From: Hyphomicrobium zavarzinii ATCC 27496
GTDB taxonomy: Bacteria; Pseudomonadota; Alphaproteobacteria; Rhizobiales; Hyphomicrobiaceae
Direction of reading: 5' to 3'
Assembly: GCF_000383415.1 (NCBI RefSeq)
Contig: NZ_KB911263.1
Span: 1-64,000 of the forward strand
Length of the DNA stretch: 64,000 bases
In this document: positions 3,812 to 47,458 of the stretch, one piece after another
How positions within the stretch are numbered: the stretch's first letter is position 1
Layout: each line of letters starts with the position of its first letter
Program-made: the position numbers and the translations under genes
The notes under the pieces: model-generated
Database searches by the model: none
The model's input: only the letters and a program-made list of their open reading frames with translations
Told to the model about the DNA's origin: nothing

Positions 3812-6799
3812 CTAAGTGATACGCCCGCTGACGTGCGCGAGGAAGAGATAAACCCGCCCCATGTCCGACAGCAGATGAGCGTTGATCGCCCGGCCGGAGG
3901 GATCGCGCTGCTCCGCGTCGCGCCGGATGTTCTCGAAGTCGACGAGGTAGTGGTTGATCGTCCGCTGCAGGTCCGGATCGGTGCGGTAACGCACGCTGAG
4001 ATCGTCGAAGATGGCGCGGCCTTCCGGCGTATAGATGCTGCGCACCATCACGCCGCGCTGGCCTGCCGCGATGCGCTGCCAGAGCGCGGCCGTCGTCGCC
4101 GGATCGAGTGCACGCGCGATCACGTCGATCTGGCTGTGGAAGGGGACCGGCGCCTGCGGAGGCGCGTGCATGACAGGCGCGGGATGATGGGCTTCGTCAT
4201 CGCGCGACGCGCGCGCCAGAAGATCGCCGAGCGACCACCCATCACGGTTCTCTGCGGCAGGCGCTTGCGAAACGGCGGGACGTGAGAGCGGTGCCTGATA
4301 GGGCGACGGCGGAGGCGGCGCGGCCCGGTAGACGGGATCGGGCGCCGCCGGTGTGGAAAGCGTGCTGAGCGCGCGCGGCCCGGTGTCCGACACGGCGCGT
4401 GCCTCTGCAACATAGCTGCTCGTCAGAGACGGAACGCCGGGTGTGCCGGGCATGGGCGGCTGCGGCGGCGTCACATCCCGCCCGGCGAGCGAGCGCGTCG
4501 TGAGGTTGGAAAGCTGCTCGATGGCGCGGAGCTGGTCCTGAAGCGCGCGCCGCATGGCCTCCGCGTTCTCGCGCGTGGCGGTGGGAAGCCGCTCCATCTG
4601 CTCCTTGAGGCGCACTTGCTCGGCGGCGATATCGGCGGCCGCGCGGCTCGCCCGCTGCCTGACCTCGTCGGAGGTTTGGTCGATCCGGCTCGTGAGCGAG
4701 GAGAGCTGCTCCGAGACCACGTTGGAGATCGACGAGAAGCGCGAGCGAAGCTCGTCGAGCGCGCGCTCGCCCTCCGCGCCGGCTTCGAGGCGGAACCGCT
4801 CCAGATCGTCGAGGGCCGTGCGCTTGGTGGCTTCCGCGCTCGCCCTGAGCTGCTCGGCCGTCGCGCGCGCACGCTGCTCGGCAGTGGCCAGCGTGCCTTC
4901 CATCGACGACGAGAAGCCTTCTACGAAACGGCCGAACTCGTCCGCCTTTCCGGAGAGCCGGTCCATCGTGCTGGAAAGCTCGGCGTGGCGGCCCTGCAGG
5001 GTGGATTCGATCTTGAAGTTGGCGTTCTCGAGCGAGTTGGCGGCGCGCATGATCGCCTGACCCTGGCCCTCGAAACGATTGGTGACGGCGTTGACCTGCG
5101 AGAGCAGGTTCTCCGACACGCGCTTCAGCATCTCGGACTGACCTGCCAGTCCCTCGATGGCCTTGAGCGACTGGCGCGTGATGTTCTCGCTCGTGCGGCG
5201 CACCGAGTTGATGCCGTGCATCAGGCTCTCATCGAGATTGACGGCCTGACGCGAGATCGTCTCGCTGAACGTGCGCGCGTGATTGTCGAGTGCGGAGGTG
5301 AGGGCGCGCGCCTTTTCGGCAACCGCGGTATCGATGGTCATGGTCGAGCGCACGATGGATTCGTCGAACGACTTCAACCGCTGACCGAACGCGGCATCGA
5401 GCGCCTTGGTGCGCTCCACGAGCTGAATGTCGAGCGCCTGCGCGCGATTGCTGATCGAGGTGTCGAGGGCCCGCGCATACTCCTCGAAGACGAGCTGCAA
5501 CTTCTCGGTCCTGTTGCTGAGCGAGGTGTCGAGCGTTGTCACGTAGCTCGCGATCGCGTCCTGAAGCTGGTCCGTGCGTGCACCGAGCGCCATCGCGAGG
5601 CCGGACGTATACCCTTCGAGCATCCCCTGCAGTTGCTCGGTCTTGCTGCCGAGCGCGTGCTCCAGCCGGTCGGTGCTCTGCCCCACTGCGGATTCGAGGG
5701 CGGTGAGGTTGTCGCCCGCGCCCTGGATGATATGCGCGAGCTTGATCTGCTGGTTCGAGAGTTTGTCGATCAGCGAGGGAATATCGGTTCCGAGCGTCTT
5801 CAGCGTCTCTGTGACACGCTCACTGGTGGAGAGCAGAGAGTTGCGCTCACCCGCGAGCTCCTGGATGAGACCGCGGATCTTTCGCTCGTTCTCCTCGTAG
5901 GAGCGTTCGAGCGCGGTGACCTCGTTGTGAACCAGGGCTTCGAGCTCACCCGCGCGTCCGAGCGCGCGCGAGATGGCGTCGTTCATGAAGCCGACCTGAC
6001 GGCGCACAGCCTGCCCGAGAGAGGCGACCGATTGCTCGGCCATACGGTCCGGCTCCGCGAGCCGGATTGCGACCTCTGTCATGGTCGAGGAGCGTAAGCG
6101 CAACTCGTCGGAGCGCCACGCGAGAAGCGCCAGCGCCCACAGCACAGCCACGGGAACGATAATCGCGGTCGCGGTGAGGAACGTCGAAGGCTTCTCGAAC
6201 AGCGAGAGGAAGGTCGCGCCCGCTTCGAGCTCCGCCCGCACGATGACGTAAGAAAACGCGAGGCAGATGACGGTCCAGACAGCGGTCGCGATCGCGGCGT
6301 ACTTGAAAGGCGCCGAAGAAGGCTTCTGCTCGAGCGCGTAGATGAGGCCGCCGATGGAGGGCGCGTCGTCGTTGGCCGCGATCTTTCCGCGGGGAGGTCC
6401 GGCGGGTCGCCGGCGCGCCATGCGCCGCGCCGCGGGCTCGGCCGATTGAGGTGGCTGCTTGTCTCCGCCGGGGCGGTCACCCTTGTCGTTGCCGGAGAGA
6501 GGCGGCATCACGGCCGGAGCAGCCTGCGCGCGGGAAGCCATGTTGGGAAGTGGTGGCGGCAACCTATGGTGCACCGTTGCCGTCGGGGAGCCGAGGTTCG
6601 GCGCGCTCGCGGGCGTGGAGACGAGGGACAGGGCGTCGCTGAGATCGGGGCCCGAGGATTTAGCGCCGGAATTTGCGTTTCCGGCCAGGGGAGGCGGAAT
6701 CAGTGCGGAGGCCGACGCCTGCGACGCGGCCGGAGATGCGGCCACGTCGGGCAGCGCCTTGGCAGCCGCCGCCGAGTCAGATTTCTGTTCCTGAGCCAT
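3812..6799 (-). CDS. Large membrane-anchored coiled-coil protein, resembling growth-pole ring protein GPR/RgsE
   Basis: The ~995-residue protein has a Pro/Ala/Ser-rich N-terminus of about 150 residues ending in a basic RRMARRRPAGPPRG patch. Two transmembrane segments follow (about residues 167-187 and 205-227 from this start). Then come roughly 600 residues of apolipoprotein-like repeated helices with imperfect repeats such as LDTSLSNRTEKLQ and LDTSISNRAQALD. A compact C-terminal domain ends VYLFLAHVSGRIT. This layout and C-terminal domain recall the Hyphomicrobiales polar-growth proteins GPR (Agrobacterium) and RgsE (Sinorhizobium), which are much longer. Homology is from memory. ATG 6799 is chosen because upstream codons look non-coding, but a TTG at 6880 with GGGAG eight bases upstream would add 27 residues. 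Confidence 0.65.
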   Translation of the reverse strand: MAQEQKSDSAAAAKALPDVAASPAASQASASALIPPPLAGNANSGAKSSGPDLSDALSLVSTPASAPNLGSPTATVHHRLPPPLPNMASRAQAAPAVMPPLSGNDKGDRPGGDKQPPQSAEPAARRMARRRPAGPPRGKIAANDDAPSIGGLIYALEQKPSSAPFKYAAIATAVWTVICLAFSYVIVRAELEAGATFLSLFEKPSTFLTATAIIVPVAVLWALALLAWRSDELRLRSSTMTEVAIRLAEPDRMAEQSVASLGQAVRRQVGFMNDAISRALGRAGELEALVHNEVTALERSYEENERKIRGLIQELAGERNSLLSTSERVTETLKTLGTDIPSLIDKLSNQQIKLAHIIQGAGDNLTALESAVGQSTDRLEHALGSKTEQLQGMLEGYTSGLAMALGARTDQLQDAIASYVTTLDTSLSNRTEKLQLVFEEYARALDTSISNRAQALDIQLVERTKALDAAFGQRLKSFDESIVRSTMTIDTAVAEKARALTSALDNHARTFSETISRQAVNLDESLMHGINSVRRTSENITRQSLKAIEGLAGQSEMLKRVSENLLSQVNAVTNRFEGQGQAIMRAANSLENANFKIESTLQGRHAELSSTMDRLSGKADEFGRFVEGFSSSMEGTLATAEQRARATAEQLRASAEATKRTALDDLERFRLEAGAEGERALDELRSRFSSISNVVSEQLSSLTSRIDQTSDEVRQRASRAAADIAAEQVRLKEQMERLPTATRENAEAMRRALQDQLRAIEQLSNLTTRSLAGRDVTPPQPPMPGTPGVPSLTSSYVAEARAVSDTGPRALSTLSTPAAPDPVYRAAPPPPSPYQAPLSRPAVSQAPAAENRDGWSLGDLLARASRDDEAHHPAPVMHAPPQAPVPFHSQIDVIARALDPATTAALWQRIAAGQRGVMVRSIYTPEGRAIFDDLSVRYRTDPDLQRTINHYLVDFENIRRDAEQRDPSGRAINAHLLSDMGRVYLFLAHVSGRIT

Positions 6800-38792: not shown

Positions 38793-39245
38793 TCAAGCGG
38801 ACGCGGGCGATCCGTAGAGCTTGCGCGCCCGCCCCTCGAACGCGTCCGTGTAGCTGCGCACGGCTTTGTCGAACGCCGCGCCCACGATCAGCGACAGCAT
38901 CGCCGAGCGAAACGCGTAATCGATCGAGAAGTGCACGTCAGCGCCTCCGTCCGCCGGGGTGAAGCGCCACTCGTTCTGGAGATGGCTGAAGGGCCCGTCG
39001 AGGTGGCGCACCCGGATGAGGCTCGCCGCCCGATCGAGCGTCACGTGCGTCGTAAAGCGTTCGGTGATCGATTTGTAGCCCACCGTCATGGTGGCCGTGA
39101 GCTCATCGCCGCTCGCGCTGCGCTCAAGCACGGTCAGCCCCTCGCAGAGCGGCAGGAACTCCGGATAGCGCTCGACGTCGGCGACCACGTCGAACATCTG
39201 CTCGGGCGTAAAGGAAACGCGCCGGACGGTGCGGAAACTCGGCAA
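38793..39245 (-). CDS. COQ10/RatA-like START-domain protein
   Basis: The ~150-residue protein has the polyketide cyclase/START fold of COQ10 and RatA. The core is LPSFRTVRRVSFTPEQMFDV followed by VADVERYPEFLPLCEG. It also has GYKSITERFTTHVTLDR and LIVGAAFDKAVRSYTDAFE. COQ10 proteins bind ubiquinone and support respiration. The name RatA implies a toxin role that is not supported here. The start is probably TTG 39245, with GAGG upstream and matching the family N-terminus; the frame runs on to ATG 39305. It lies 71 bases downstream of lipA on the same strand, the conserved order. Confidence 0.88.
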   Translation of the reverse strand: MPSFRTVRRVSFTPEQMFDVVADVERYPEFLPLCEGLTVLERSASGDELTATMTVGYKSITERFTTHVTLDRAASLIRVRHLDGPFSHLQNEWRFTPADGGADVHFSIDYAFRSAMLSLIVGAAFDKAVRSYTDAFEGRARKLYGSPASA

Positions 39246-39316
39246 AGGCAAACCTCGCAAATCCCGAGACCATGATCCCGGCCGCGCCGGCGCCATCGCC
39301 CGCATAAAAGTTGCAG

Positions 39317-40273
39317 CTACGCGGTGCGCGCAGCCTTGAGGCGGCGGAAGTCGTCGCCCGCGTGATAGGACGAGCGCGTCATGGGGCTCGCCGCCACGAC
39401 CAGGAAGCCCTTGGCGAGCGCGATCCTCTTGAGATCTGCGAACTCGTCGGGCGGCACGTAGCGCTTCACCTCGGCATGCTTGGCCGATGGTGCCAGATAC
39501 TGCCCGATGGTGAGAAAATCAACGTTGGCGCTGCGCAGGTCATCCATCACCTGCAGGATCTCGTCGCGCGTCTCTCCAAGGCCGACCATGAGGCCCGACT
39601 TGGTGAACAGGGTCGGATCGATCTCCTTTGCGCGCTGCAGGAGACGCAGCGAATGGAAGTAGCGCGCACCGGGCCGGATCCGCACGTAGAGCCCCGGCAC
39701 GGTTTCGAGGTTATGGTTCAGCACATCCGGCCGCGCGCGCACCACCACGTCGAGAGCGCCGTCCTTGCGCAGGAAGTCCGGGATCAGAACCTCGATGCTG
39801 GTCTGCGGTGCGCGAGCCCTCACCTCTCCGATCACATCGCGGAAATGCGCGGCCCCGCCGTCAGGAAGATCGTCACGATCGACCGACGTGATCACCACGT
39901 GCTCGAGCCCCAGTGCCGACACCGCATCCGCGACGCGCACGGGCTCGCCAGTATCGAGCGGGCGCGGCAGGCCCGTCGCCACGTTGCAGAACGCGCACGC
40001 GCGTGTGCAGATCTCCCCCATGATCATCATGGTGGCGTGCTTCTTCTGCCAGCACTCGCCGATGTTAGGGCAGCCCGCCTCCTCGCACACCGTCGCGAGG
40101 CCATGCTCGCGCACGATCTTGCGCGTCGACAAAAACCCGTCGGAGGATGGGGCGCGGACGCGAATCCACGGCGGCTTGGGCAGCATCGGCCGATCGGGCC
40201 GGTGCGCCTTTTCTGGATGGCGCGGACGCGAGCCGTCGCCTGGAGACATCCGCTTATCGATGAGAGTGACCAT
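39317..40273 (-). CDS. lipA: Lipoyl synthase LipA
   Basis: LipA is a radical-SAM enzyme that inserts two sulfurs into octanoyl groups on lipoyl domains. The 318-residue protein has both cluster motifs: the auxiliary one in [16 protein letters not shown] and the radical-SAM one in [26 protein letters not shown], the metal-independent HNLETVP and the C-terminal RSSYHAGD complete the family pattern. In related genomes lipA follows the pdh/lpd genes, its substrates. Here the complete pdh operon is absent from that place. Confidence 0.97.
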
Positions 40274-40395: not shown

Positions 40396-40683
40396 TCAGC
40401 GCCCGCCGAGGAAGCGCGCCACGATGACGACGATCAGCGCGCCCACAGTCGAAACGACGATCTGGTTGCCGTAGGGCACGATCGCATCGAAGTCGTAGGG
40501 AAGGGTCAGAAGGCCGGCCGACACGAGGTATCCGCCGAGCACGGCGCCGATCAGGCCGACCAGGAGGTTGCGGATGAGCCCGCCGCCACCGAGCAGAAGC
40601 CCGGCGAGCCAGCCTGCGACCAGGCCGTTCAGGATCATGATGATCCAGACCTTGTTGTCGGTTGCGAATTGTACGTAATCCAT
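40396..40683 (-). CDS. Small GlsB/YeaQ/YmgE-type membrane protein (transglycosylase-associated family)
   Basis: The 95-residue protein has three hydrophobic segments, with the glycine-zipper pattern LNGLVAGWLAGLLLGGGG and LIGAVLGGYL that defines the transglycosylase-associated (GlsB/YeaQ/YmgE) family. The name is historical; these proteins are stress-associated membrane proteins of uncertain role. ATG 40683 begins MDYVQFATDNKVW. No neighbour suggests a function. Confidence 0.82.
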   Translation of the reverse strand: MDYVQFATDNKVWIIMILNGLVAGWLAGLLLGGGGLIRNLLVGLIGAVLGGYLVSAGLLTLPYDFDAIVPYGNQIVVSTVGALIVVIVARFLGGR

Positions 40684-40895
40684 CAAAAGCTCCCCATCAG
40701 CGAACCACGCGTGCCGGGTCGTTGTGCCCGTCCATCTCCGGGTTGCTGCGGCGCGAGATTAGAGCGCTTCCCGGTAGCTGGGAACCCGTATTCCGAGCGC
40801 GTATCCGGCCGAAAAAGAACGCGTAGAGACGCCCCCGCGTTATCCACGCGAGCTTTCAGGCAAGCCGCCACAAACGAGAGCGAGCGAGCCCGTGG

Positions 40896-41195
40896 CTAAA
40901 CGTGACAGCGAGCGCCGAGGTAGTCGTTGAGGAGGCGATTGTAGAGATCGGCGTCGGCCTTCTGCTGGCCGCTGAGCTTTTTGCCGGAGGCTTCGGCCTG
41001 AACAGACGACGGAACGCCCTTCGCGTCGAGGCGATTGAGCTGCTGCTTGATGGACCCGCAGCTCTCGCCGTTCGCCAGCGCCTTGCCGCTGGGACCGTTT
41101 CCGCTTCCCGACGCGCAACCGCCGACCGCGACCGCCGCTCCCAACGCACCGAGCAAAACGACACGCACTGCGCCGCCGCGCATCATCGCAGTCAT
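40896..41195 (-). CDS. Small putative lipoprotein, paralogue of the one at 41494
   Basis: The ~99-residue protein has a hydrophobic segment (VRVVLLGALGAAVAVGGC) ending in a lipobox-like VGGC, followed by SGSG. The mature part has SCGSIKQQLNRLDAKGVPSS, then a Lys/Ala-rich stretch with GKKLSGQQKADADLYNR and a final cysteine three residues from the end. The two cysteines (SCGS, ARCHV) could form a disulfide. The pattern matches the protein at 41494-41967. ATG 41195 has GAGAGG upstream; ATG 41219 is also possible. Unknown function. Confidence 0.65.
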   Translation of the reverse strand: MTAMMRGGAVRVVLLGALGAAVAVGGCASGSGNGPSGKALANGESCGSIKQQLNRLDAKGVPSSVQAEASGKKLSGQQKADADLYNRLLNDYLGARCHV

Positions 41196-41493
41196 GGATT
41201 GGAAGCCCTCTCGAAGCATTTAATCGACGCGGTACGTTAAGATTTTCGACGGAGCTGTTGAACCCCTGGCCGCTCTAATCAAGGCTTTCGCGCAAAAGTG
41301 TGGCCAGGATGCAGCAGTGGCCGCAATCCCGGTTCAAAAGTCGAAAACTCTTCCTACGAAAGCCGGAATTCCCCCGCTTGCAGCCGACACAGAAGGCGCA
41401 TCCGGCACGGGGGACCGGATACGCTCAGAGCCTGGAAGGTCAAACCCGGAAAGCCGCCAGCACGGGGCCGTGCGGACGGCGATTCGTACCAGC

Positions 41494-41967
41494 TTACTGC
41501 TGCTGCTGAACGACCGGCGGAGCGATGTTGGCTCGCGGCGTGTTGGCAGAGACCACCTGGGCGGAGTTCGCTGCCGGAATGCCCGGCGTGACCTGCGCCG
41601 TCGTCTGGACGACGGGCTTCGGCCCGAACGCGGAGCACTTGGCCTGGAATTCGGCGTTCGCCTTGTCGAGTTCGGCCGCCTGGGCCAGCGAAGCGCGCTT
41701 GACGGCAACCGTGGAGGTTTTGCCCACCGACGCCTTCTCCAGCCGATCGGTCACGCCTTCCTTGCGCAGCATGTCGATGCGCTGGGAGAGCGAGTAGCAG
41801 GCCGGATCGACCTTCGGCGCGGCAGCAACTACCGGAGTCGCGCCGGCATTCGTGCCGATGGATTGGGTGGTGAGCGACGTGCCGAGAATGCCGCCATCCG
41901 ACGAGCATCCGGCAAGCAGTGTCGCGCCCAGTGCAGCAAAGACGAGAGTTGCTGACGATTTGAACAT
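41494..41967 (-). CDS. Putative lipoprotein, paralogue of the one at 40896
   Basis: The 157-residue protein has a clear lipoprotein signal, FAALGATLLAGC, with cysteine at position 21. The mature domain has ACYSLSQRIDMLRKEGVTDR, a central VGKTSTVAVKRASLAQAAEL and FQAKCSAFGP, then a Pro/Ala/Gln-rich tail ending VVQQQQ. The spacing Cys-x3-Q-x2-L-x4-GV ... GK ... Cys matches the shorter lipoprotein at 40896-41195, so the two are paralogues. GGGGGAC precedes the ATG. Unknown function; location inferred as a lipid-anchored envelope protein. Confidence 0.75.
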   Translation of the reverse strand: MFKSSATLVFAALGATLLAGCSSDGGILGTSLTTQSIGTNAGATPVVAAAPKVDPACYSLSQRIDMLRKEGVTDRLEKASVGKTSTVAVKRASLAQAAELDKANAEFQAKCSAFGPKPVVQTTAQVTPGIPAANSAQVVSANTPRANIAPPVVQQQQ

Positions 41968-42308: not shown

Positions 42309-43634
42309 TTAGCGGGGCCGCCCAAGCAGCTCGAGGGCCGCTTTCACCACCTGCTCCGCGCCGGGAAGCGCGGCAGCCTGCAACTCTCCCGCGTACGGCA
42401 TCGGAACTGCCGCGCCGGCAAGGCGAACGGGCGCGCACTTGAGAGATGCGAACGAGCGGCTGGCGATGGAGGCCACCAGCTCCGCGCCGATGCCGCCATC
42501 CCCCCAGCCCTGCTCGAGCGTCATGAGGCGCCCGGTCCGCGCCACTGAGGCGGCCACCGCGTCACGGTCGAGCGGGCGCACGCACATGAGGTCGATGACC
42601 TCGGCCTCGATCCCCTCCGCACTCAACCGGCCGGCCGCTTCCAGCGCGCCGAAAACCGCGTGACCGATGGCGGCGATCGTAAGATCCGAACCGGCGCGTG
42701 CGATCCGCGCGGCGCCGAGCGCGCCACCTTCTGCGACATCGCCTTGCTCGCGCGTCGCATAGAGCTGGTCGTGCTCAAGCAGCGCAACGGGACCGGGATC
42801 GCGGATCGCCTGGGAGAGCAGCGCATAAGCCGCACACGGCGTCGCAGGTTGCGCGACCTTGAGCCCCGGAATGTGCGCGAGCTGCGCGGCGACACAGCGC
42901 GCATCCTGCCCCGTCATCCCAGGCACGAACCCGTTCGGCCCGCGGAACACGATGGGCACCGGCAGCTTGCCGCCCGAGAGATAGAAGGTCTCCGCAGCGC
43001 TTGCGAGATAGGCGCCGAGGGAGTCGATCGAGCGCCCCCAATGAGAAAGCTCCACCACGGGCTTGAGGCCGGCCATCGCCGCGCCCACCGCAACGCCGAA
43101 CAAGGCGTCCTCGATGGGGGGAACGGAGACGACGCGCGACGGACCGAACTCGTCGAGCAGCCCCTGCGCCACCTTGGGCGCGCCCCGGTTCTGCGCAACG
43201 TCCACGCCAATCAGGAACACGTCGGGATCGCGACGCATCTCTGCGGCGAGCGCATCGCGCAAAGCCTCGCGATAGCTGCGGCCCGCCGTCTCGGCCGAAC
43301 GAGGCGGCGCCGGCGCGAGATCCGGCAGCGGATCGAGAGACGCGAACCCTAGCGGCTGAGCGAGCCCCCGCGCTGACAGGGGTTTTTGCTGCACGCCCGC
43401 CAGCACGATCGCGATCGGCGTGTTGACCTTCACGCCCTCTGTCCCTGCGGGAACCAGGATGCGCTCGACGTGGCCTTCGTCCTCGGCCTCGATCTCGAGC
43501 GTGGCGGTCGGCGTGGCGATTTCCACCAGAACGTCGCCCGCGGCCACCTGCTGCCCTTCCGCGACATGCCAGCGCGAAATCTTGCCGTCCGTCATGGAGG
43601 GCGTCACGATCGGCATGAGGATTTCTCGACGCAT
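42309..43634 (-). CDS. Pyruvate dehydrogenase E1 beta-like protein with a lipoyl-type N-terminal domain lacking the lipoyl lysine
   Basis: The 441-residue protein has an N-terminal biotinyl/lipoyl-type domain (residues 1-75), a linker, then the transketolase-type E1 beta fold with AVGAAMAGLKPVVEL, FYLSGGKLPVPIVFRGPNG and the C-terminal domain. The domain turn reads EIATPTATLEIE where active domains have EIETDKATME, so the lysine that carries lipoate is Thr43. The Glu in PPIEDALFG equivalent to the cofactor-contacting Glu of E1beta is kept. ATG 43634 has GAGGAGCG upstream, directly after the E1alpha stop. No E2 or E3 gene follows, unlike the usual pdhABC arrangement. Function is doubtful. Confidence 0.85.
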   Translation of the reverse strand: MRREILMPIVTPSMTDGKISRWHVAEGQQVAAGDVLVEIATPTATLEIEAEDEGHVERILVPAGTEGVKVNTPIAIVLAGVQQKPLSARGLAQPLGFASLDPLPDLAPAPPRSAETAGRSYREALRDALAAEMRRDPDVFLIGVDVAQNRGAPKVAQGLLDEFGPSRVVSVPPIEDALFGVAVGAAMAGLKPVVELSHWGRSIDSLGAYLASAAETFYLSGGKLPVPIVFRGPNGFVPGMTGQDARCVAAQLAHIPGLKVAQPATPCAAYALLSQAIRDPGPVALLEHDQLYATREQGDVAEGGALGAARIARAGSDLTIAAIGHAVFGALEAAGRLSAEGIEAEVIDLMCVRPLDRDAVAASVARTGRLMTLEQGWGDGGIGAELVASIASRSFASLKCAPVRLAGAAVPMPYAGELQAAALPGAEQVVKAALELLGRPR

Positions 43635-43642
43635 TTCGCTCC

Positions 43643-44632
43643 TCAAGCCCCAGTTGCCGCGAAGAGATCGGCCGCCTCCGGAACGGGCTCCGCACGCGCG
43701 GCGAGTGCTGCAGAAACCACGGACTCCTTCACCTCCTTCTCAAGCGCCTTGAGCGCGCGCTCATTGAGGATGCCCGACGCCAGAATGCGCCCGCGGGCCC
43801 TCGAGACCGGATCGGCCTCCTCGAGCCTCCGCTCGGACGCGCCCGCGCGCGCCGGCACGCCGCCATGCCCGCGATAGCGATAAGTCAGCATTTCGAGAAT
43901 GGTCGGCCCGTCCCCGTCGCGCGCCCGCGCAATGGCCTGCCGGGCCGCAACGATCACGCGCCGCACGTCGATGCCGTCCACCTGATGACCGGGAATGGCG
44001 ACCGGCGTCCCGCTTTCGGCAAGCGCCGAGGGAAGCTGGCCCAGCACGATGCTGGCGCCCGGCGCGGCGGTGTTGTTGTCGATGATGAAAACGATCGGCA
44101 GCGCCCACTGCGCGGCGATCTTGTAGGCTTCGAGCACGCGCCCGCGCGCAGCCGCGCCGTCGCCGAAGAAGCAGAGCGTCACATCATCCCCGCCGCGATA
44201 GCGCGAGGCAAATGCGAGTCCGGCGCCGAGCGGCGCAGCAAGCCCTGCCGTGCCATGACCGCCGAAAAAATGATGCTCCGGCGCGAACATGCGCACGGTG
44301 CCGCCCTTCCCCTGCGCGAGACCCGTCTTGCGGCCCAGAAGCTCGGCCAGCACGAGACGGGGGTCTACGCCGCGCGCCAGAAGCGCGCCATGGGTGCGAT
44401 AGCTCGTGATCACGGGATCGGTCGCGCGTGCGGCCATCATCGTGCCGACGATCGAAGCCTCCTGCCCGATGCACAGCGGGCATACGCCATGAATGGCCTG
44501 CAAGGCGTAAAGCTGTCCGGCCTTTTCCTCGAAACGGCGAATGAGCAGCATGCTGCGGTAAGCCGCGATCTCTTCGTCCGGAGAGAACATGATGTCCTCC
44601 GCGCCAACCGGACCAAGGGGGCTTCCCGTCAT
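43643..44632 (-). CDS. Pyruvate dehydrogenase E1 alpha-like protein with altered active-site residues
   Basis: The 329-residue protein has the E1alpha fold: GQEASIVGTMMA, SYRTHGALLARG, GKGGTVRMFAPE, GLAAPLGAGLAFA, and the thiamine-diphosphate motif GDGAAARG...DNN (157-159 and 185-187). Several key positions differ from working E1alpha. The motif normally HLxxGQEA reads PLCIGQEA (Pro52). The Tyr two after the NN pair is Ala189. The HGHS phosphorylation-loop serine is Gly257. AAGAGGAGCGG precedes the ATG. It may act on another 2-oxo acid, be a pseudoenzyme, or use a changed chemistry. Paired with the E1beta gene 8 bases downstream. Confidence 0.85.
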   Translation of the reverse strand: MTGSPLGPVGAEDIMFSPDEEIAAYRSMLLIRRFEEKAGQLYALQAIHGVCPLCIGQEASIVGTMMAARATDPVITSYRTHGALLARGVDPRLVLAELLGRKTGLAQGKGGTVRMFAPEHHFFGGHGTAGLAAPLGAGLAFASRYRGGDDVTLCFFGDGAAARGRVLEAYKIAAQWALPIVFIIDNNTAAPGASIVLGQLPSALAESGTPVAIPGHQVDGIDVRRVIVAARQAIARARDGDGPTILEMLTYRYRGHGGVPARAGASERRLEEADPVSRARGRILASGILNERALKALEKEVKESVVSAALAARAEPVPEAADLFAATGA

Positions 44633-44879: not shown

Positions 44880-45209
44880 TCACCCGGAGGGAGCAGACTC
44901 CAGCACGACGCGATCGCGAGGATGGGCGAACCCAAGCACCTCGCGGGCAATCTCTTCGACGAAATCGGGATCGGGGAGATCGGGGCGGAGCAGAGCGACA
45001 TCGCGCTCCAGTTTGGCGCGCACAGCCTCGAGGCTCTGGATCTCGAACTGCAGAGCGCTTTCACGCTCCGCAAGTCGGTCTCGCGCCTCGAGGCCATGCC
45101 GGCCTTTTAGGGTGTGATAGGCGAAATAAGCCGTCAATCCTAGGCAGAGAAGCAACACCAGCGCCTGCCGCGACTTGGCTCGCCGATCATATATTGGCTG
45201 ACGCAGCAC
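44880..45209 (-). CDS. ftsB: Septum formation initiator family protein FtsB/DivIC
   Basis: The 109-residue protein has a short cytoplasmic tail, one membrane segment (LVLLLCLGLTAYFAYHTL), a coiled-coil (LAERESALQFEIQSLEAVRA) and a small C-terminal domain PDFVEEIAREVLGFAHPRD. This is the FtsB/DivIC layout. FtsB links FtsL and FtsQ in the divisome. It lies between eno and the E1alpha gene, the conserved alphaproteobacterial location. Confidence 0.9.
   Translation of the reverse strand: MLRQPIYDRRAKSRQALVLLLCLGLTAYFAYHTLKGRHGLEARDRLAERESALQFEIQSLEAVRAKLERDVALLRPDLPDPDFVEEIAREVLGFAHPRDRVVLESAPSG

Positions 45210-45311: not shown

Positions 45312-47458
<2,147 letters not shown>

Follow-up and report, generated by a model that had tools for sequence, protein, structure and literature searches.

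The pyruvate dehydrogenase (PDH) complex is a textbook complex, in which side roles of E1 are hard to separate from E1 chemistry. In the heterotetrameric PDH of alphaproteobacteria (PdhA-PdhB-PdhC-Lpd; Zymomonas/Sinorhizobium type) a lipoyl domain is carried on E1beta. In the active site of related E1 enzymes, beta His128 acts in lipoyl acylation and beta Met81 supports the ThDP conformation. Across the titles and abstract openings that made up the literature searched, with subscription papers mostly outside it, neither a lysine-less PdhB nor an E1 pseudoenzyme is named. Hyphomicrobium is stated to be without pyruvate dehydrogenase activity in a passage of PMC10602745 that cites Harder et al. 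1975. The LbpA lipoate-binding proteins of Hyphomicrobium denitrificans are lipoylated and act in sulfur oxidation (eLife 2018, PMC6067878); the passages of that paper on these proteins hold no discussion of PdhAB. Here, we describe a PdhA-PdhB pair of Hyphomicrobium zavarzinii that is an orphan E1 and, judged by its sequence, probably catalytically dead. The reading that we find fairly probable is an E1 pseudoenzyme that selection has maintained, its lipoyl-type domain serving as a structural or docking module.

The window, that is, the whole stretch of DNA analysed, comprises 64,000 nucleotides of H. zavarzinii ATCC 27496 (contig NZ_KB911263.1, positions 1 to 64,000). The features of interest are as follows.

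46133..47422, minus strand: eno, which we take from its sequence to be enolase.
44880..45209, minus strand: ftsB-like gene, presumably so from the operon order of alphaproteobacteria.
43643..44632, minus strand: E1alpha-like protein, 329 aa (Pfam, PDB matches, residue comparison).
42309..43634, minus strand: E1beta-like protein, 441 aa (Pfam, PDB matches, residue comparison).
43395..43634, minus strand: lipoyl-type domain of E1beta, residues 1-80, without the lysine (Pfam PF00364, 5.4e-13; genus conservation).
43506..43508, minus strand: lipoyl-lysine position of the beta-turn, codon ACC, Thr43 (sequence reading, genus alignment, HMMER).
41494..41967, minus strand: lp1, small lipoprotein-like ORF, located between E2 and Lpd in relatives; no Pfam match.
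40896..41219, minus strand: lp2, small lipoprotein-like ORF with the same ancestral place as lp1; no Pfam match.
40396..40686, minus strand: conserved 96 aa ORF, an operon member also in relatives (Transgly_assoc match weak, below the cut-off).
39317..40273, minus strand: lipA-like lipoyl synthase (Pfam Radical_SAM), presumably lipA, judged by operon order and sequence.
38793..39305, minus strand: putative Coq10-like protein (Pfam Polyketide_cyc).

The start of E1beta is placed at the ATG at 43634, inferred from a GAGGAG-like stretch ahead of it; the longest ORF begins at a TTG at 43646. Pfam Biotin_lipoyl (PF00364) matches residues 8-80 counted from the TTG, equal to 4-76 counted from the ATG, and this confirms the N-terminal lipoyl-type domain proposed in an earlier first-pass annotation of this DNA. 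Two transketolase-type domains lie C-terminal to it, and the Pfam matches of PdhAB are to E1_dh and to the transketolase-type Pyr and C domains (7e-64, 1.3e-26 and 9.4e-32). Numbered from the ATG, the minus-strand codon 43508-43506 reads ACC and encodes Thr43 inside EIATPTATLEIE. HMMER aligns ATPTAT of the window over ETDKAT-type turns of solved E2 lipoyl domains, with PTA placed over DKA; hence, Thr43 occupies the position of the lipoyl lysine, and sequence and alignment agree with the first-pass claim that threonine replaces it. A different lysine, which by that annotation would refute the claim, was sought in the turn by sequence and by alignment to E2 lipoyl domains; EIATPTATLEIE contains none, and an alternative lysine in the turn was rejected.

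The E1beta search, run over 103 family genomes with that of the window among them, returned the protein in each of the seven other members of the genus at 64-75% identity to the window, in two pieces in G065. Frames of E1beta are open in these seven genomes (66-74% identity), as are those of E1alpha (69-79% identity). The turn lysine is missing in 8/8 genus genomes, with Thr in seven and Ser in one (G067). Since genomes of eight different species agree that there is no lysine, a sequencing or assembly error at 43506-43508 was rejected, and its probability is practically negligible. At sequence level, the first-pass view that lipoate cannot be attached to this domain in the usual manner thus holds throughout the genus. 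It had also asked for clade homologues that lack the lysine and keep the fold: judged by sequence, the lysine is absent in all eight and the domain is kept, at a mean identity of 82% over 28 pairs, which makes it the best conserved part of E1beta. AlphaFold2, with only seven sequences in the alignment, reached a mean pLDDT of 69 for E1alpha and 58 for E1beta, with values below 50 across most of the lipoyl-type domain, too low to inform on its fold. The proposed structural or docking role is still something that we infer.

Lysine loss recurs outside the genus. Among the 103 family genomes, the E1beta locus was read in 51, and 15 of these are without the lysine. It is present in 35 (identified by motif in 33, and by eye in G087 and G032), and G038 is unreadable. 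Seven lysine-less genomes lie beyond the genus (G014, G076, G077, G092, G093, G094 and G095). Class-wide, an exact DNA pattern with the lysine codon matched in 227 of 385 genomes and the same pattern with a second codon base other than A in 0 of 385; the pattern is strict, and the window's own turn escapes it, as further diverged turns would. When genus E1alpha was compared with 297 genomes of the order, the window scored 653 bits and any other drawn genome at most 394 (G063-G069 were outside the draw). The turns of individual relatives vary further. E1beta of G092 (L124) reads EIEADRSTMEIEA, with Arg at the lysine position, and the E2-like frame that follows reads EIETETATMEIEA, which has no lysine either. 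In G075 and G078 (L111 4437-5936; L140) the E2 lipoyl turn EVETATATMEVEA is without lysine, yet the E1beta lysine is kept; no Lpd was seen at either locus, and G075 carries an additional E1beta and E2 on another contig.

Changes in E1 extend well beyond the turn. Thirteen active-site positions, chosen from human E1 for their roles there, were scored; they are invariant in the lysine-keepers that were long enough (31 E1alpha, 32 E1beta), bar one gap in three columns. Seven of the 13 are changed in the window, and the same seven in all eight genus members. Human alpha His63, Asn171 and Ser264 correspond to Pro52, Ala162 and Gly257 in the window, and human beta Met81, Phe85, Gln88 and His128 to Ser197, Arg201, Asp204 and Asp244, while alpha Asp167 and Asn196 are retained as Asp158 and Asn187 and beta Glu59 as Glu175. 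Across the genus, Pro replaces alpha His63 in 8/8 and Gly replaces Ser264, while A, S, V or G stands at Asn171; in E1beta, the Phe85 position holds R or A, the Gln88 position D or E and the His128 position D (7) or G (1), and the Met81 position reads Ser, Pro, Pro, Asp, Thr, Gly, Ala and Ala. Retained in 8/8 are alpha Tyr89, Arg90 and His263, the Mg-ThDP anchor (alpha Asp167 and Asn196) and, at beta 59, an acidic side chain (E in three, D in five). In each of the 15 lysine-less genomes, two or more of the 13 are lost. G093 is intermediate: it retains 11 of 13, so that its E1 keeps most of the pocket, and the lysine is absent from both E1beta and the adjoining E2 (L109 9653-10906), where the DHR motif has become DQR (DQRAIDAA).

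These kept residues count against a pure scaffold, which would need none of them, and the anchor leaves room for a lipoate-independent ThDP enzyme. Such a neofunctionalised PdhAB would bind Mg-ThDP and catalyse a reaction without a lipoyl group (non-oxidative decarboxylation or carboligation), its losses being confined to residues that serve reductive acylation and transfer to E2. The retention of alpha Asp167, Asn196, Tyr89, Arg90 and His263 and of the acid at beta 59 is what this predicts, as is the loss of beta His128, the residue ascribed to lipoyl acylation. However, the beta Met81 site varies across the eight genomes, so that pocket is not conserved, beta Phe85 and Gln88 are lost as well, and the metal ligand Asp167 is gone in lysine-less G076, G094 and G095. 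We therefore regard a new ThDP enzyme as unlikely, and the maintained pseudoenzyme remains our preferred reading.

The partners of E1 are also missing from the locus. Intact relatives (G037, G033 and G039) have the order eno, ftsB, E1alpha, E1beta, E2, lp1, lp2, Lpd, a 95-residue ORF, lipA and coq10. E2 and Lpd are absent from the locus in 8/8 genus genomes, and in the window lp1 and lp2, which lie between them in relatives, are still in place. Outside the lipoyl domain, queries with E2 and Lpd returned only chance-level matches in the window (E of at least 0.043 fully outside E1beta, and one of 0.031 straddling the E1beta end) and at the loci of seven relatives matched the E1beta lipoyl domain alone; remnants of either gene above chance were found neither in the window nor in these seven. 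The remaining order is kept in the genus as far as contigs extend, with the exception of G069, which has no lipA between the 95-residue ORF and coq10 (L057, about 6685-6747) and carries a 70% identical lipA on another contig (G069:C24:32718-33659). G068 has a second lipA-like gene, 68% identical, in addition to its operon copy. The 96 aa ORF (40396-40686) is 77-95% identical across the genus and precedes lipA in most loci.

A different departure is seen in the lysine-keeping genus g10 (L061, L062, L112, L116, L117, L133, L136 and L142), where the match of the PDH-operon E2 sets in at about the E3-binding part, with no lipoyl turn in 8/8 genomes read; the E1beta lipoyl domain may thus be the only one in the g10 complex. 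At L116 (9348-10398; G036), E1alpha matches fall in two overlapping frames, a frameshift or assembly error.

Despite these losses, the PdhAB sequence appears to be maintained by selection. Within the genus (28 pairs), dN/dS is lowest in the lipoyl domain, at about 0.12, and rises through E1alpha (0.20) and the E1beta core (0.24) to the linker (0.54); g10 (4 genomes, 6 pairs) gives 0.09, 0.12 and 0.067 for the first three of these. All are rough figures because synonymous differences are large, at about 0.5 of sites. Relative to g10, the E1beta core is relaxed, but constraint on the lysine-less domain comes close to that on a working domain. Third-position differences are about two to three times the first-position ones, the linker excepted. 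Under slow decay, the two genes would be functionless relics, left by an enzyme that was replaced, on which selection has relaxed; this accounts for the core value of 0.24 against 0.067, and in the AceE-carrying genera g7 and g11 many genomes, among them G015, G017 and G042-G045, show no full-length PdhB match. Relics would, however, hardly keep open frames in seven other genus genomes, a lipoyl domain at 0.12 or such a third-position excess outside the linker, and E2 and Lpd have vanished on either side of the retained genes with no recognisable remnant. Decay thus seems distinctly unlikely when set beside a pseudoenzyme under maintenance.

Pyruvate oxidation has another candidate in this genome, since a homodimeric AceE-AceF-Lpd is encoded elsewhere. 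The AceF turn reads ESDKAAMEVPA, with the lysine present. Just two E2 catalytic domains occur in the window's genome, this AceF in its aceE-aceF-lpd cluster and one beside a 988-residue E1, which we take to be oxoglutarate dehydrogenase. A second, intact PdhABC was not found in the genome; the E1 pairs L005 and L006 were rejected as such because their E1beta has no N-terminal lipoyl domain. At L051 (5953-9207 on C1 of the same genome), an E1alpha-E1beta pair is followed by a lipoyl domain (TTKSAVEIE, lysine present) fused to hexapeptide repeats, standing where the usual E2 would be. Given an AceF with its turn lysine, E1alpha-beta might still feed AceF or SucB in trans, its own lysine-less domain serving just to position it. 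This is very improbable: beta His128 and alpha His63 are lost in 8/8 genomes along with other pocket residues, and AceF adjoins its own AceE. The finding is in fact larger than the first-pass annotation had stated, as the whole enzyme is altered: besides the lysine, it is without E2, E3 and several active-site residues, and the genome encodes AceE-AceF-Lpd.

AceE was found in 8/8 genus genomes and in 12 of the 15 lysine-less genomes, against 6 of the 35 lysine-keepers; it was not found in lysine-less G014 (100% complete), G077 (94%) and G092 (54%). Tree-based pairing of AceE with lysine loss gave a median p of 1 in a test without power. Because AceE also occurs in keepers and was not found in three of the lysine-less genomes, it is not shown to be the sole cause of the loss; takeover by AceEF is likely a permissive step and not a proven cause.

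On a tree of 26 genomes built from five neighbouring proteins, at least four changes of the lysine state are required. The AU test rejected a single loss in one clade (p-AU 3.9e-5), a result weakened because the lysine-less group was defined with the data already in view, and 5 of the 26 rows are less than half filled (lysine-less G064 and G092 were too short and were left out). G014 is the sister of the genus on this tree and may share its loss. On the tree of the E1 proteins themselves, the lysine-less genomes are strung together on long branches, a grouping that we read, as a candidate only, as long-branch attraction. That the family turned its E1 heterotetramer, several times independently after AceEF takeover, into a non-catalytic sensor or docker with a lysine-less lipoyl binding module is a possibility that we put forward tentatively.

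On our preferred reading, the course of events would have been that AceEF-Lpd took over pyruvate oxidation first, that PdhAB next lost acyl transfer and afterwards its active site, and that selection retained the heterotetramer in a non-catalytic role as scaffold, sensor or regulator. The lysine-less lipoyl-type domain would be a structural or docking module, possibly for partners that normally recognise lipoyl domains. Loss of E1 chemistry would also bear on the old puzzle that Hyphomicrobium is reported, in the statement of PMC10602745, to be without pyruvate dehydrogenase activity. In one genus and, on this tree, several related lineages, E1 chemistry has apparently been removed and the protein kept; hence, a suspected non-catalytic role of E1 becomes directly testable by deletion. 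Conserved, intact genes after such losses point to a new, non-standard job for PDH E1, and if the conversion was indeed repeated, PDH E1 has a non-catalytic duty that outlives its chemistry.

Compared with known systems, the window PdhAB shares its domain order and operon place with the alphaproteobacterial PdhA-PdhB-PdhC-Lpd, and lysine-keeping relatives with full-length matches are about 46-51% identical to it. In contrast to that complex, it is without the lipoyl lysine, E2, E3 and some active-site residues. Human PDH E1 (1ni4, 3exe) is among the best solved relatives (1ni4_B 7.6e-71, 1ni4_A 2.1e-68), and its His63, Asn171 and Ser264 (alpha) and Met81, Phe85, Gln88 and His128 (beta) are all replaced in the window; the human E1beta match starts only at window residue 121 and so covers no lipoyl domain. 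E2 lipoyl domains (PDB 3crk, 1fyc and 1lab) match the window domain across residues 4-78 or 5-74 and have a DKA turn, whereas the window has PTA and hence no attachment site. LbpA (PMC6067878) is lipoylated and serves sulfur oxidation, and nothing in our analysis ties it to the window PdhB; both are unusual uses of lipoyl-type proteins in Hyphomicrobium.
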